Of a stretch of DNA of 64,000 nucleotides, positions 4,345 to 56,930 are shown piece after piece. Every line of letters starts with the position of its first letter. Position 1 is the first letter of the stretch. A model generated the notes under the pieces. The model worked only from the letters and a program-made list of their open reading frames with translations, was not told the DNA's origin and did no database searches. The stretch lies in assembly GCF_947495205.1 (NCBI RefSeq), contig NZ_CANLXV010000007.1:124001-188000 (forward strand), given 5' to 3'. The position numbers and the translations under genes are program-made. The DNA is from an uncultured Polaribacter sp. GTDB lineage: Bacteria; Bacteroidota; Bacteroidia; Flavobacteriales; Flavobacteriaceae.

Positions 4345-4728
4345 CTAATCTTTATATAAATTCATTTTTAATTGCATTACTGTAGCAATAGAAAGCGCTC
4401 TATTCTTCATACGTTCTGCAATTACACCATTAAAATCTTTATTTATGGTTTGAAATAAATACGATGTCCAAATGCTGAAATGTTCTTTTGTAAAGGCTAT
4501 AAATGTATTTTTGTCTAAATGCTTTTGCATTGTATTGTTTTGATAACTAGTAGTATCAAACAAAATATCGTTCCAAAAATCTGAAATAATTTCTAAGTGT
4601 GTTTGTAATTGGTTTGCTTGCACAATATCTTTAAAAAAGGGAAACATTTGTTTGTCTGCGAGCAATAAGTTATAAAAATTGGTGATGATGGTTAAAATAT
4701 CTTTTTGATTTGCAATGTCTGGTTTCAT
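4345..4728 (-). CDS. group III truncated haemoglobin
   Basis: 127 aa; NFYNLLLADKQMFPFFKDI ... FWNDILFDTTSYQNNTMQKHL resembles group III truncated globins. Confidence 0.75.
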   Translation of the reverse strand: MKPDIANQKDILTIITNFYNLLLADKQMFPFFKDIVQANQLQTHLEIISDFWNDILFDTTSYQNNTMQKHLDKNTFIAFTKEHFSIWTSYLFQTINKDFNGVIAERMKNRALSIATVMQLKMNLYKD

Positions 4729-4792
4729 ATTTTTAACTTAGATCTTAAAAAATGTTTTTGTGTTTTAACAAGTGCTTTTAAAATGGCAATAT

Positions 4793-4865
4793 GCGTTAAG
4801 GATTGCAACGGCATCCTTTTTGCTTTTTCGCAAAAAGATATAGTGGAAAGCCTGTTAAAACGCCC
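4793..4865 (-). repeat. dispersed ~75-90 bp structured repeat, copy A (3' of cdd)
   Basis: - strand reads gggcgttttaacaggctttccactatatctttttgcgaaaaagcaaaaaggatgccgttgcaatccttaacgc; ends and internal blocks match copies at 45050-45131 and 51591-51676; central hairpin ctttttgc/gcaaaaag. Confidence 0.8.
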
Positions 4866-4876
4866 AAATAATAATA

Positions 4877-5374
4877 TTACAAATAGCTACTATCAAAAGA
4901 AAAGGGCAATAATGCGCTTAAGGAATCTGTTTTGATGATTTGCCCAATTTCTCCCATAAAAATAATAGGAAAAGGTTGTTTTTGAGTAATTTCATACTCT
5001 GCTAATGCTTGTCTGCAGGCACCACAAGGACCTACTGGTTTGTTTACTTTGGTAATATTTGAGCTTGCTGAAACGGCTAATTTTAGGATTTTTATTCCTG
5101 GAAATTGTGCTCCTGCATAATAAACTGCTACTCTTTCTGCGCATAAACCAGAAGGATATGCTGCATTTTCTTGGTTGTTTCCTAAAATAATTTCGCCATT
5201 TTCTAACAAAATTGCTGCACCTACATTAAATTTAGAATAAGGTGCGTATGCTTTTTTTCTTGCACTTATAGCACTAAGCATTAGATTTTTATCTTCTAAT
5301 AACATTTCTTCTAAAGTATCAAATACTTTTACGGTTGTTGCTATTTTTATTTCTTTCATACTTTTGGGCGTCAA
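4877..5374 (-). CDS. cdd: cytidine deaminase
   Basis: 165 aa; zinc motifs CAERVAVYYA and PCGACRQALAEY. Confidence 0.95.
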   Translation of the reverse strand: MTPKSMKEIKIATTVKVFDTLEEMLLEDKNLMLSAISARKKAYAPYSKFNVGAAILLENGEIILGNNQENAAYPSGLCAERVAVYYAGAQFPGIKILKLAVSASSNITKVNKPVGPCGACRQALAEYEITQKQPFPIIFMGEIGQIIKTDSLSALLPFSFDSSYL

Positions 5375-44153: not shown

Positions 44154-44987
44154 TTATTTGGTTAAAGAGAATTTATAAATAATGGTGCCTGTTTGTGTTT
44201 TTGGTGCTTCTAAATCTACATTCCATTTTGTACTTAAAGCAGCTAATTTAGCTGGCTTTAACAAACAAGGTGCTGTATTTGTAGATCCTTTTACACCAGG
44301 AATTGCTTTAACAACCTCGCCTTTATTATTTACTGTTATTTGAACCACAACAATGCCTTCTTCTTGACAATCTGGTTGTTGTTTTGGTTTAGACAAAGCC
44401 TTTCTACCTGCTAAATTATAATTTCCACCAGAGCCTGTACCTGTGTTTCCATAATATTTAGAAGATTTTGAATCTCCGTTAACCTTGCCCTTTACACCTT
44501 TAATAGCATCATCTCCTTCTCCTTTTGATGCGCCTGAATCTGCATTATTGCTTAATAATTTATTTAAAGCGTCTTGTGCTTCTTTAGATGGTTTTGGTTT
44601 GGTTTTCTTTATTGGCTTTATAGTTTCTTTAACTACTTTTTTAACTGATGCTTTTTTGGGTTCTTTTACTTTTTCTACAATTGGCACATCTTTGGCAACA
44701 TTATTCGTAATTAATTTTTCTACAGGTTTTTCTATTGGAGTTTCTTTAACTACTTCTTCTAAAACTTCTTTCTTTTTTACAACCTCTTTTGGCGTTGTTT
44801 TTTTTGAAGTATCTACAGGTTTGCCTGAACCTTTGTTTGAGTTTCCAAAATTTATAGCTACTCCATATTCTTCTGGCGGATCTAAATATTGCATGCCATA
44901 GTTTAGTATTCCAAAAATTAATAATAACAATATAATTGCTGTTATTATTGCAGATTTTTGTTGATGTTTCGTATTAAATATTTTCAC
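44154..44987 (-). CDS. TonB-family energy transducer-like protein
   Basis: 277 aa; N-terminal TM, Lys/Pro-rich linker, C-terminal TonB-like domain (EGIVVVQITVNNKGEVVKAIPGVKGS); next to exbD/exbB. Confidence 0.8.
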   Translation of the reverse strand: MKIFNTKHQQKSAIITAIILLLLIFGILNYGMQYLDPPEEYGVAINFGNSNKGSGKPVDTSKKTTPKEVVKKKEVLEEVVKETPIEKPVEKLITNNVAKDVPIVEKVKEPKKASVKKVVKETIKPIKKTKPKPSKEAQDALNKLLSNNADSGASKGEGDDAIKGVKGKVNGDSKSSKYYGNTGTGSGGNYNLAGRKALSKPKQQPDCQEEGIVVVQITVNNKGEVVKAIPGVKGSTNTAPCLLKPAKLAALSTKWNVDLEAPKTQTGTIIYKFSLTK

Positions 44988-45049: not shown

Positions 45050-45131
45050 GCGTTAGGGATTGTAGCATTTGTTTGAGCTCTTTTTTGTTTTTCACAAAAA
45101 AAGCGAGTGCGTAAAGCCCGTTAAAACGCCC
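45050..45131 (-). repeat. dispersed ~75-90 bp structured repeat, copy B (3' of exbD)
   Basis: - strand gggcgttttaacgggctttacgcactcgctttttttgtgaaaaacaaaaaagagctcaaacaaatgctacaatccctaacgc; see copies A and C. Confidence 0.85.
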
Positions 45132-45137
45132 AAAATA

Positions 45138-45530
45138 TTAATTTCCTTTTACAGCTAAAATCATTTTTAGTTTATTTTTATTGGCAATATCTATTACTTG
45201 CATTACATTTTTATAAGGTACGTCTTTATCGCCACGAATTACTATGGTTTTTTGTTTGTCGGTGCCTATTTTTCTTAAAATTTCGCTTTCTAAATTAGCT
45301 GCACTTACTTTTGTTTTGTCTATGTAAAAAATAGATTTATTTGTAATTGAAACTGCTACAGATTTGCTGTTTTCTGTTTTTCCGCCCGCTTTTGGCAATA
45401 AAACATCTATTGCGCTAACTGTAACTAGGGTTGATGTTAGCATGAAAAATATGAGCAATAAAAACACAATATCTGTCATGGATGACATATTGAATGTTGG
45501 ATCTACTTTATTTCTTCCTCTTAAATTCAT
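45138..45530 (-). CDS. exbD: biopolymer transporter ExbD/TolR
   Basis: 130 aa; MNLRGRNKVDPTFNMSSMTDIVFLLLIFFMLTSTLV ... VVIRGDKDVPYKNVMQVIDIA. Confidence 0.92.
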   Translation of the reverse strand: MNLRGRNKVDPTFNMSSMTDIVFLLLIFFMLTSTLVTVSAIDVLLPKAGGKTENSKSVAVSITNKSIFYIDKTKVSAANLESEILRKIGTDKQKTIVIRGDKDVPYKNVMQVIDIANKNKLKMILAVKGN

Positions 45531-50384: not shown

Positions 50385-51527
50385 ATGAATTTCACACTAA
50401 CAGAAGAGCACATCATGATTCGAGATGCCGCTAGAGATTTTGCGCAAACAGAATTACTACCTGGTGTTATAGAAAGAGATAATAAACAAGAGTTTCCCCA
50501 AGAACTCGTAAAAAAAATGGGCGATTTAGGTTTTATGGGCATTATGGTAGACCCAAAATATGGAGGAAGCGGTATGGACACAATTTCTTACGTTTTAGTA
50601 ATGGAAGAATTATCTAAAATAGACGCCTCTGCATCTGTTATGGTTTCTGTAAACAACTCACTGGTTTGTTATGGTTTAGAAGCTTATGGCTCAGAAGCTC
50701 AAAAAGAAAAATATTTAACAAAACTAGCCACAGGAGAACAAATTGGTGCATTTTGTTTATCTGAACCAGAGGCAGGATCTGATGCTACTTCACAAGCCAC
50801 CACAGCAGAAGATAAAGGAGATCATTATATGATTAATGGCACAAAAAACTGGATCACAAACGGCGGTAGAGCTAATATCTATTTAGTAATTGCACAAACC
50901 GATAGAGATAAAGGACATAAAGGAATTAATGCCTTTATTATAGAAAAAGGTATGGAAGGTTTCCATATAGGTCCCAAAGAAGACAAATTAGGAATTCGCG
51001 GTTCAGATACGCACACTTTGCAGTTTAATGATGTAAAAGTACCCAAAGAAAACAGAATTGGAGCAGATGGTTTTGGCTTTAAATTTGCCATGAAAACCCT
51101 TTCTGGTGGCAGAATTGGTATTGCTGCACAAGCTTTAGGCATTGCCTCTGGAGCTTATGAACTCGCTTTAAAATACAGTAAAGAGCGTAAAGCTTTTGGC
51201 ACAGAAATTTGCAACCATCAAGCAATTGCTTTTAAATTAGCAGATATGCACACAGAAATAGAAGCTGCCAGATTATTAGTTATGAAATCTGCATGGGACA
51301 AAGATCAAGGCAATAATTACGACATGTCTTCTGCAATGGCAAAATTATACGCAAGTAAAGTTGCAATGGAACAAACGGTAGAAGCCGTTCAAATTCATGG
51401 TGGCAATGGTTTTGTAAAAGAATATCATGTAGAACGTTTAATGCGTGATGCAAAAATTACACAAATTTACGAAGGCACCTCAGAGATTCAAAAAATAGTT
51501 ATTTCTCGTGGTATAATTAAAGGGTAA
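50385..51527 (+). CDS. acyl-CoA dehydrogenase
   Basis: 380 aa; GAFCLSEPEAGSDATSQATTA, YEGTSEIQKIVISRGI, QIHGGNGFVKEYHVERLMRDAKI. Confidence 0.96.
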   Translation: MNFTLTEEHIMIRDAARDFAQTELLPGVIERDNKQEFPQELVKKMGDLGFMGIMVDPKYGGSGMDTISYVLVMEELSKIDASASVMVSVNNSLVCYGLEAYGSEAQKEKYLTKLATGEQIGAFCLSEPEAGSDATSQATTAEDKGDHYMINGTKNWITNGGRANIYLVIAQTDRDKGHKGINAFIIEKGMEGFHIGPKEDKLGIRGSDTHTLQFNDVKVPKENRIGADGFGFKFAMKTLSGGRIGIAAQALGIASGAYELALKYSKERKAFGTEICNHQAIAFKLADMHTEIEAARLLVMKSAWDKDQGNNYDMSSAMAKLYASKVAMEQTVEAVQIHGGNGFVKEYHVERLMRDAKITQIYEGTSEIQKIVISRGIIKG

Positions 51528-51552: not shown

Positions 51553-51583
51553 AAAATCCATCTTATTTCAGGTGGATTTTTTT
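51553..51583 (+). terminator. terminator-like hairpin after acyl-CoA dehydrogenase
   Basis: aaaatcca ... tggatttt followed by T-rich tract. Confidence 0.6.
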
Positions 51584-51590
51584 ATTTCTT

Positions 51591-51676
51591 GGGCGCAACC
51601 TTTCAGGTCAGGCTTTCAGTACTCGCTTTACGCTAAAAAGCGTAAGAGCTCAAACAAATACTTCAATCCTTTGCGC
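51591..51676 (+). repeat. dispersed ~75-90 bp structured repeat, copy C (3' of acyl-CoA dehydrogenase)
   Basis: + strand gggcgcaacctttcaggtcaggctttcagtactcgctttacgctaaaaagcgtaagagctcaaacaaatacttcaatcctttgcgc; shares ggctttc, actcgctt, hairpin, gagctcaaacaaat and caatcc with copy B. Confidence 0.85.
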
Positions 51677-51754: not shown

Positions 51755-52543
51755 TCATTCAGTTTCTAGCAATTCAATATGAAACAACTGCAAACCAGAA
51801 GAAGGCGCATTGTTTCTTAGAAATTTTCTATCATTATCTTCTTTTAGAGATGCTACAATATAATCTAACGTTAAATTCCCCTTTCCTAACTCAAACAAAG
51901 TAGCCATCATTAACCTTATTTGATACCTTAAAAAACCTTTACCTTTCACCTTTAATATATAGGAGTATTCTGGAAAAAAATTAGCGATTAAAATTTCATT
52001 CCTTACAATTTCACAAGAAGTAATAGTTCTTTTAAAAATTGCATTTTCAGAGGGTTTGGTACAATACTTATGAAAATAATGCACTCCTTCAAACAATTTT
52101 GCACCAGCTTGCATCAATTCCAAATCTAAATTTTTTGAAATATTCACTAAAAAAGGTGCTGCAAAAGGATGATTTTTCTCTCCAAAAGAAAAATAATAAT
52201 GATATTCTTTAATTTTAGGAGCATTAATAATGTTAAATGAAGTTGACACCTCCTTAACTTCTAAAGCTCTAAAATCTGGAGAAAGATTGGCATTCAATTG
52301 ATTTGAAAAAGTGTTACAATTCAATTTTTCATTTCTAAATAATTGCAAATAATAAAACCTTGCAGACACCTTTGCATCTGTTCTCCCAACTCCAACTGTC
52401 TTAAATTCAACATCTTCAAACACATAAGACAAAGATTTATCTACCATTTCATGCAATGTTTTTGCATTTTTCTGTTTTTGCCAACCTGAAAAGCGAAACC
52501 CTAAGAATTCTAAGGAAATCACGTAAGAAAATTGATATTTCAT
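51755..52543 (-). CDS. TruA-family tRNA pseudouridine synthase-like protein (divergent)
   Basis: 262 aa; FLGFRFSGWQKQKNAKTLHEMVDKSL, catalytic-Asp region GVGRTDAKVSARFYYLQLF (canonical GRTDAGVHA). Confidence 0.8.
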   Translation of the reverse strand: MKYQFSYVISLEFLGFRFSGWQKQKNAKTLHEMVDKSLSYVFEDVEFKTVGVGRTDAKVSARFYYLQLFRNEKLNCNTFSNQLNANLSPDFRALEVKEVSTSFNIINAPKIKEYHYYFSFGEKNHPFAAPFLVNISKNLDLELMQAGAKLFEGVHYFHKYCTKPSENAIFKRTITSCEIVRNEILIANFFPEYSYILKVKGKGFLRYQIRLMMATLFELGKGNLTLDYIVASLKEDNDRKFLRNNAPSSGLQLFHIELLETE

Positions 52544-55624: not shown

Positions 55625-56851
55625 ATGGAATTACTTACAACAAACAATGTATGGATGATGATCTGTACAGCACTTGTTTTCTTTATGCATACTGGCTTTG
55701 CATTCCTAGAAATTGGTTTAACAAGACAAAAAAACACAATCAATATTTTATTCAAAAATATTTTCATTATTACAGTTGGCTTATTACTCTATTATATTGG
55801 AGGTTTTAATTTAATGTATCCTGGCTTTGCAGAAGGTTCTGCAGGTATAATAGATTTTCCAGGTTTTGGTATTGCCGCGCCAGAAAATGGAATGACTCCA
55901 GAATATGCAAATGGTGGTTACACTTGGTGGACAGACTTCTTGTTTCAAGGAATGTTTGCAGCAACTGCAGCAACAATTGTATCTGGTGCAGTAGCAGAAC
56001 GTATGAAAATAGGACCATTTATGCTTTTTACAGTAATCTACGTTGGCTTAATATACCCAATTGCAGGTTCTTGGAAATGGGGTGGTGGTTTCTTAGACCA
56101 AATGGGATTCTATGATTTTGCAGGTTCTACCTTAGTACATTCTGTTGGTGGTTGGGCGGCATTAGTAGCTGTTTGGTTATTAGGTGCAAGAATTGGAAAA
56201 TTTAAAAATGGTAAACCGCAAGCAATTCCTGGACATAACATACCATTAGCAACTGCTGGTGTTTTAATACTTTGGTTAGGTTGGTTTGGTTTTAATGGAG
56301 GTTCAGTCTTATCTGCAGACCCAGAATTAACTTCTTTAACATTAGTTACAACATGTTTAGCTGCTGCTGCAGGTGGTGTTGTTGCTGCTTTTGTATCATT
56401 CATCAAATACAAAAACCTAGACTTAACAATGTTTCTTAACGGAATCTTAGGTGGTTTAGTAGGAATTACTGCTGGTGCAGATGTTATGACGCCAGAAAGC
56501 GCAATTATTATTGGTGCCATAGCTGGTGCTTTAATTGTATTTGCTGTTGCTTTTGTAGATGCTATAAAGTTAGATGATCCAGTTGGTGCTATTGCAGTGC
56601 ATTTAATTTGTGGTATTTGGGGAACATTAGCAGTTGGGATTTTCTCTACAAATCCAGAACATACATTCTTAATTCAATTAACAGGTGTAGGTTGTTACGC
56701 AGCTTTCTGTATCGTTTCTTCATTCTTAATAATCTTTACATTAAAGAAAACTGTAGGAATTAGAGTTAGTGAAAAAGAAGAATTAGAAGGTCTAGATGCC
56801 CATGAACATGGTATGGATGCTTATTCAGACTTTCGTTTAAACGAGGACTAA
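55625..56851 (+). CDS. ammonium transporter (second copy)
   Basis: 408 aa; GFAFLEIGLTRQKNTINILFKN, GSTLVHSVGGWAALVAVWLLGARIGK, LGWFGFNGGS. Confidence 0.95.
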   Translation: MELLTTNNVWMMICTALVFFMHTGFAFLEIGLTRQKNTINILFKNIFIITVGLLLYYIGGFNLMYPGFAEGSAGIIDFPGFGIAAPENGMTPEYANGGYTWWTDFLFQGMFAATAATIVSGAVAERMKIGPFMLFTVIYVGLIYPIAGSWKWGGGFLDQMGFYDFAGSTLVHSVGGWAALVAVWLLGARIGKFKNGKPQAIPGHNIPLATAGVLILWLGWFGFNGGSVLSADPELTSLTLVTTCLAAAAGGVVAAFVSFIKYKNLDLTMFLNGILGGLVGITAGADVMTPESAIIIGAIAGALIVFAVAFVDAIKLDDPVGAIAVHLICGIWGTLAVGIFSTNPEHTFLIQLTGVGCYAAFCIVSSFLIIFTLKKTVGIRVSEKEELEGLDAHEHGMDAYSDFRLNED

Positions 56852-56875
56852 ACCTTAAAAAAAATCAAATATTTT

Positions 56876-56905
56876 ACCTGCAAATTTTAAAAATTTGCAG
56901 GTTTT
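56876..56905 (+). terminator. hairpin terminator after second amt
   Basis: acctgcaaattt / aaatttgcaggt 12-bp stem then ttt. Confidence 0.75.
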
Positions 56906-56930
56906 CCTGTTAATTATCATTTTCACAAAA

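Follow-up and report, generated by a model that had tools for sequence, protein, structure and literature searches.

Three repeat copies and their neighbors

The window, a 64,000-nucleotide stretch of a contig from an uncultured Polaribacter sp., contains three copies of a folded repeat, A, B, and C, each located beyond the stop codon of a gene (Table 1). Reading of the sequence confirmed that all three copies lie where the original prediction had placed them, with the layout it described, and that they begin 11 (A), 6 (B), and 63 nt (C) after the stop codon of the preceding gene. We describe the element on the strand on which these copies follow their genes in sense, called here the reading strand, and left and right refer to this direction. 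Copy A does not have the ACTCGC and gagctcaaacaaat blocks, as had also been predicted, because it carries a different module type (TATATC/GGATGCC, that of the Rfam family Flavo-1). The terminator-like hairpin to the left of copy C is kept in congeners whether an element follows or not, based on a comparison of congener loci. The 127-amino-acid gene to the right of copy A presumably resembles a group III truncated hemoglobin, a likeness judged by eye only.

Table 1. Positions of the repeat copies, their parts, and the neighboring genes in the window
Feature	Position	Strand	Details
Copy A, type 1 (Flavo-1) element	4787..4867	-	core 4799-4853; Rfam strand +
Copy A, T-rich left edge	4866-4876	-	abuts the cdd stop directly
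Copy A, outer stem P1, 5' arm GCGTT	4859..4863	-	from sequence and P1 covariation; partner AACGC
Copy A, outer stem P1, 3' arm AACGC	4793..4797	-	from sequence and motif position
127-aa gene, right of copy A	4345..4728	-	no Pfam match
cdd, cytidine deaminase, left of copy A	4877..5374	-	PF00383, E 1.1e-16
Copy B, type 2 element (ACTCGC/GAGCTCAAACAA module)	45050..45131	-	core 45056-45119
Copy B, T-tract	45132-45137	-	after the exbD stop
277-aa gene, right of copy B	44154..44987	-	no Pfam match; TonB-like by composition/context only
exbD, left of copy B	45138..45530	-	PF02472, E 1.1e-28
Acyl-CoA dehydrogenase, left of copy C	50385..51527	+	PF00441/PF02771/PF02770
Intrinsic-terminator-like hairpin (AATCCA/TGGATT) and T-tract of the acyl-CoA dehydrogenase gene	51556..51583	+	directly left of copy C
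Copy C, type 2 element	51591..51676	+	core 51610-51670
Copy C, outer stem P1 arms	GCGCAA 51593-51598, TTGCGC 51671-51676	+	
Copy C, small hairpin H1, CCTTTCAGG	51599-51607	+	
Copy C, P3 hairpin	about 51627-51645	+	
tRNA pseudouridine synthase, convergent, right of copy C	51755..52543	-	PF01416, E 2.8e-22

Family membership and copy number

An Rfam scan, a check the original prediction had proposed, identified copy A as Flavo-1 (RF01705; window positions 4787-4861, plus strand; 53.5 bits against a gathering score of 42). The match lies opposite to the reading strand, and we refer to this opposite strand as the Rfam strand. Copy B scored 26.7 bits with the Flavo-1 model, under the 42-bit threshold, and copy C gave no match with it. 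With copy C as the query, BLAST found 40 places in the genome, and the Flavo-1 covariance model gave 59 matches, 41 of them above the gathering score. The union of BLAST and model matches, with the weakest matches dropped, comes to about 84 copies in this genome; the sequence basis for these counts was the stretches around matches.

Copies B and C were filed as a Flavo-1 variant because they share its outer parts and because modules are swapped at orthologous sites (described below). We assign copies A, B, and C to one genome-wide folded-repeat family, Flavo-1 in a wider sense than the Rfam model. The likeness to RF01705 lies in the above-threshold score of copy A, the common P2-P3 core, the Bacteroidetes taxon, and the scattered intergenic occurrence. 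In contrast to the elements described here, the Rfam model pairs only P2-P3 of type 1 and leaves outside the outer stem P1, H1, the T-tract, and the entire type 2 module of copies B and C. The family is a known one; new are the type 2 variant, P1, H1, and a changed reading of the element.

Congeners hold between 0 and 66 copies, with 59, 53, and 54 in the genomes G001, G021, and G029 and none in several nearly complete genomes (G002, G003, G025, and G035). G008, G018, and G034 are likewise rich in copies. The type 2 module is widespread, occurring in Tenacibaculum, Lutibacter, Wenyingzhuangia, Chryseobacterium, Weeksella, and others, in agreement with the earlier impression that similar repeats are common in flavobacteria.

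Anatomy and covariation of the element

Placed side by side, the copies show a common order on the reading strand: a T-tract, the outer stem P1, an optional small hairpin H1, the stem P2, an inner module, and a terminal hairpin P3. P1 occurs in two classes, one of GCGTT/AACGC-like, covarying forms (class a) and one of AGC/GCT with a conserved right end, GGCTAAACTTGTTTGCCAAC (class b). P2 sets CTTTC opposite CAATC and, on the Rfam strand, contains a conserved purine-mismatch motif of GATTGAA opposite GAAAGC. The inner module is either type 1 (TATATC/GGATGCC) or type 2 (ACTCGC/GAGCTCAAACAA); copy A is of type 1, the Rfam form, and copies B and C are of type 2. T makes up 0.68-0.71 of the 10 nt that lead into the element and 0.33 of the sequence farther out.

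P3 is highly variable in length and falls into length classes. One class of about 90 nt (88-92 nt; about 27 long copies) occurs in several species with unrelated inner sequence and heterogeneous inserts, some of which are other repeats. A small open reading frame within this class is unsupported, given the heterogeneity of the inserts and the presence of other repeats in several of them. Separately, we observed other flavobacterial repeats (GTCATTGCGA..., GCTGAATTTATTTCAGC, and TTGAGCGTAGTCGAAA) within the loops of Flavo-1 elements as nested repeat insertions (loci L150, L169, L256, L191, L207, L222, L224, L253, and G000:C3:114473-114642).

The stems covary extensively. P1 is fully paired in 81 of 85 copies (mean of 44 and maximum of 52 when arms are swapped between copies). 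Among 192 copies from this genome and its relatives, 177 have only Watson-Crick pairs in P2a and 175 in P2b, with 36 and 49 expected after partners are swapped between copies. In 24 aligned type 1 copies, 98.3% of cells are paired, and 51 double changes are found versus 15.7 in shuffles, none of 500 shuffles reaching 51 and slid controls giving values near zero; since copies share ancestry, all of these counts overstate the number of events, and the swap and slide controls answer this only partly. The type 2 module covaries as well, from CTC[G]C/GAG[C]TC to CTC[A]C/GAG[T]TC (4 of 4). The P2-P3 fold that defines Flavo-1 is thus conserved with compensatory changes. The claim that the hairpin arms change in sequence and stay complementary is strongly borne out, and the covariation supports selection on structure.

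Orientation and position relative to genes

In this genome, 63 of 84 copies have a sense gene on the left. Tandem gaps hold 44 sense and 13 antisense copies here, 39 and 9 in the relatives alone, and 84 and 20 when the two sets are combined (p 1.6e-10), with orthologous copies counted separately and genes called by a simple ORF rule. Orientation is thus nonrandom, as had been predicted, and neither a random orientation nor a lack of compensatory changes was seen. The stronger form of the prediction, that the element always follows a gene in sense orientation, is true of the three copies in the window. It fails genome-wide, given the antisense copies in tandem gaps, and what is seen there is a strong bias.

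Of 134 copies, 67 have their left edge no more than 15 nt from a sense stop codon; of 64, 7 have their right edge equally close to an opposing stop. In convergent gaps we count 38 copies and in divergent gaps, which contain promoters, only 12, the two kinds of gap being about equally common. In six complete genomes, the strand on which copies lie is not biased with respect to the replication arms.

Filled and empty sites

Sites A and B are empty in many congeners. Only 0-7 nt separate cdd from the next gene in 11 of them, and at most 5 nt separate exbD from the next gene in 9. Site A is filled in this genome and in G034, G060, and G063 and decayed in G061; site B is filled in 7 genomes including this one, with 142-155 nt and an intact element. 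Filled sites are about 140-150 nt longer than empty ones, T-tract included. Because short spacers are the majority state at both sites, the element is a gain. The T-tract is absent at the empty sites, so it came with the element there. Of the readings originally offered, a miniature mobile element is the one that the empty sites support.

Filled sites A and B (L254-L256 and L284-L290) also contain about 60 nt beyond the core on the right side. This extra has no sequence common to the two sites or to other copies. The idea that the unit includes a common right flank of 60 nt was rejected, as matches of this flank join orthologous sites and rarely different ones. By eye, no clear target-site duplication is found between filled and empty sites A and B, where flanks have diverged and a duplication of 2-4 nt could escape.

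At site C, the acyl-CoA dehydrogenase terminator is the same throughout, and what comes after it differs among genomes. Some have a type 2 copy with P1 of GCGCAA/TTGCGC or GCACAA/TTGTGC, some a type 1 copy with a different P1, and some a decayed copy; one site is cleanly empty.

Comparison of flanks gave 36 groups of orthologous copies (one is a within-locus pair, so about 35). Within groups, position, orientation, and usually the P1 class are kept; the letters of P2 change, as do P3 and sometimes the module itself, and both module types occur in about 14 of the 36. At site B, the species pairs L285/L286 (type 1) and L287/L288 (type 2) have homologous right flanks, so a single insertion took place there and its inner part was later replaced. 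Copies of B scattered through other species are 85-96% identical, often above the 77-83% of orthologous stretches. Judged from these sequences, the module swaps and the near-identical dispersed copies would result from gene conversion between copies.

That copies remain at orthologous sites for long times and keep their folds intact could also reflect a host function. The element could be a chromosomal DNA site of benefit to the host, bound by gyrase or a nucleoid protein like the BIMEs of E. coli and selected at gene ends, with mobility only in the past; the scarcity of copies in divergent relative to convergent gaps is consistent with this as well. However, several nearly complete congeners have no copies, and many sites are empty or decayed in relatives, which makes such a role improbable.

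The strand that carries the constrained fold

Imperfect pairs in P2 on the reading strand are A.C in 25 cases and G.T in none, and all stems together give 35 A.C versus 5 G.T, with many of the A.C cases in one type 1 subvariant and perhaps ten independent changes. An A.C mismatch corresponds to a G.U or G.T pair in the complementary strand, so it is the Rfam strand, complementary to the mRNA of the upstream gene, whose fold is constrained. As the Rfam model could favor such copies in detection, we repeated the count on other sets; A.C to G.T was 3 to 0 at orthologues found by their flanks, 3 to 0 in type 2 copies found by BLAST, and 5 to 0 in 69 copies from other genomes of many genera found with a plain DNA pattern. 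The conserved mismatches are purine-purine on the Rfam strand.

Predicted folding agrees for type 2, as 51 of 57 copies fold better on the Rfam strand; type 1 copies show no difference between strands. Copy C reaches -28.9 kcal/mol (z -2.5) on the Rfam strand and -20.2 kcal/mol (z -0.4) on the reading strand. As proof of strand, type 2 folding strength is tempered by the CTC[G]C/GAG[C]TC covariation, which supports a pairing other than that of minimum energy.

The original prediction had offered, as one of two readings, a 3'-untranslated-region RNA element, acting in sense on processing, stability, or termination of the upstream mRNA. The tandem bias, the left edge beside stop codons, and the structure kept at orthologous loci all fit such an element. 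However, stems on the mRNA strand show A.C rather than G.T, copy C and most type 2 copies have the more stable fold on the opposite strand (type 1 being indifferent), the T-tract comes before the structure and not after it, about 20% of tandem copies are antisense, and some complete congeners have no copy at all. The prediction was not borne out on this point, and we consider a sense RNA element unlikely.

The Rfam type implies a small or structured RNA made from the Rfam strand, and such an RNA would account for the annotation and for the asymmetry in folding and wobble pairs. Flavo-1 was listed as probably RNA and not cis-regulatory (Weinberg et al. 2010, PMC2864571). Most copies are, however, antisense to both neighbors, and flavobacterial promoter boxes are in no excess upstream on the Rfam strand: 177 copies yield 17 -7 boxes and 1 full promoter there, and the opposite strand of that stretch yields 33 and 6. 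In Flavobacterium psychrophilum, Flavo-1 matches occur without distinction in either orientation to transcribed regions, and transcription is lacking at many of them (Guerin et al., PMC9723704). Position, promoters, and empty sites do not support the listed type, sRNA, and a small RNA as the basis of the family is unlikely. An intrinsic terminator, a GC hairpin followed by a U-tract on the mRNA strand, is dismissed, since the T-tract precedes the structure.

Candidate enzymes

The Y1 transposase of REP elements (RAYT, PF01797) is absent from G001, G021, and G029, which have 53-59 copies each. At 31 Y1 loci, an element occurs within 1.5 kb at only 2, neither at the gene border, and the short RAYT-like Y1 gene of this genome is flanked by a different repeat (AGACCTCATAGGTTT...). 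Gene content and Y1 gene flanks thus rule out a RAYT as the mover. Reverse transcriptase was considered because the Rfam strand carries an A-tract at its 3' end and is ruled out as a present requirement by its absence from the copy-rich genomes G021, G029, G013, and G009. Copy B had no match in phage or plasmid collections. The absence of both enzymes from copy-rich genomes suggests a mover that is perhaps extinct there or belongs to another enzyme class.

Some Y1 loci have features of their own. The short Y1 gene (194 aa from its ATG; L040 1257-1915, G000:C1 about 248785-249445) has a palindromic repeat, AGACCTCATAGGTTTTAAAAACCTGTGAGGTC, on both sides, which is probably its own REP. Y1 matches with identical scores occur at G013:C1:2213251, 2220563, 2227875, and 2260911; three of them are exactly 7,312 bp apart, which suggests tandem copies of a 7.3-kb unit. 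At L039 (G000:C18:16626-16964), the Y1 domain match lies in an unusual context within a 1198-aa open frame.

Flavo-1 as a probable REP-like DNA repeat

We favor, at a probability of roughly 0.6, the reading that Flavo-1 is a REP-like, non-autonomous DNA repeat, inserted beside stop codons and homogenized by gene conversion. It is probably mobile DNA rather than a regulator of adjoining genes. Counting against this reading are the lack of an enzyme, with RAYT and reverse transcriptase missing from copy-rich complete genomes; the insert at sites A and B, which exceeds the core by about 60 nt; the lack of a target-site duplication clear by eye; and the lack of a replication-strand bias, which an IS608-like single-strand transposase would predict.

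As a REP-like repeat, the whole unit with its T-tract would enter intergenic DNA, most often with its left edge no more than 15 nt from a stop codon. Copies would then persist long at orthologous positions, where gene conversion from sister copies would probably rewrite them, with both hairpin arms moving together. The structure would likely be read by a protein that binds the complement of the upstream message as a single-stranded hairpin. The folded molecule would thus be single-stranded DNA, and we infer that a recombinase or processing enzyme for Flavo-1 exists.

REP repeats are similarly sited and show GT pairing (PMC3733652). REPs and BIMEs with their RAYTs (PMC3733652) are likewise dispersed, folded intergenic repeats, mostly in co-directional or convergent gaps, modular mosaics, and likely non-autonomous. 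Flavo-1 differs in its nested and much longer structure and in having no adjoining RAYT, with none at all in several copy-rich genomes; the RAYT-like gene of this genome carries another repeat. MITEs are also short and non-coding, with inverted ends and filled and empty sites, but no parent transposon and no clear target-site duplication was found for Flavo-1.

The attC sites of integrons lie after stop codons in a fixed top-strand orientation and are folded as the bottom strand. Their terminal hairpin varies widely in length, and structure is conserved rather than sequence. Flavo-1 shares the position and orientation after stops, the bottom strand as the folded one, the variable P3, and the keeping of structure over sequence. 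Unlike attC sites, it has ends that do not resemble RYYYAAC/GTTRRRY (P1 is of GCGTT/AACGC forms or AGC/GCT) and occurs as single dispersed copies beside housekeeping genes, without cassette arrays. By analogy, Flavo-1 may be the substrate of a single-strand recombination system in Flavobacteriia, its folded bottom strand being read by an enzyme and inserted beside stops. Such a system would apply attC logic to solitary dispersed units, without a RAYT, reverse transcriptase, or integron ends. We hold this proposal to be doubtful; should a dedicated enzyme exist, a major bacterial group would have a new single-strand recombination system.

Flavo-1 has been listed as a probable RNA since 2010, and the transcriptome study did not arrive at an explanation for it. 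With the empty sites, the strand that tolerates wobble pairs, and module swapping at fixed sites, its reading shifts from an orphan small RNA toward folded mobile DNA. The addition of P1, H1, and the type 2 module should improve the search model.

Elsewhere in the window, positions 56779-56908 (plus strand) weakly match the Rfam manA-II motif (36.6 bits, threshold 100), probably by chance; this segment ends in a terminator-like hairpin.
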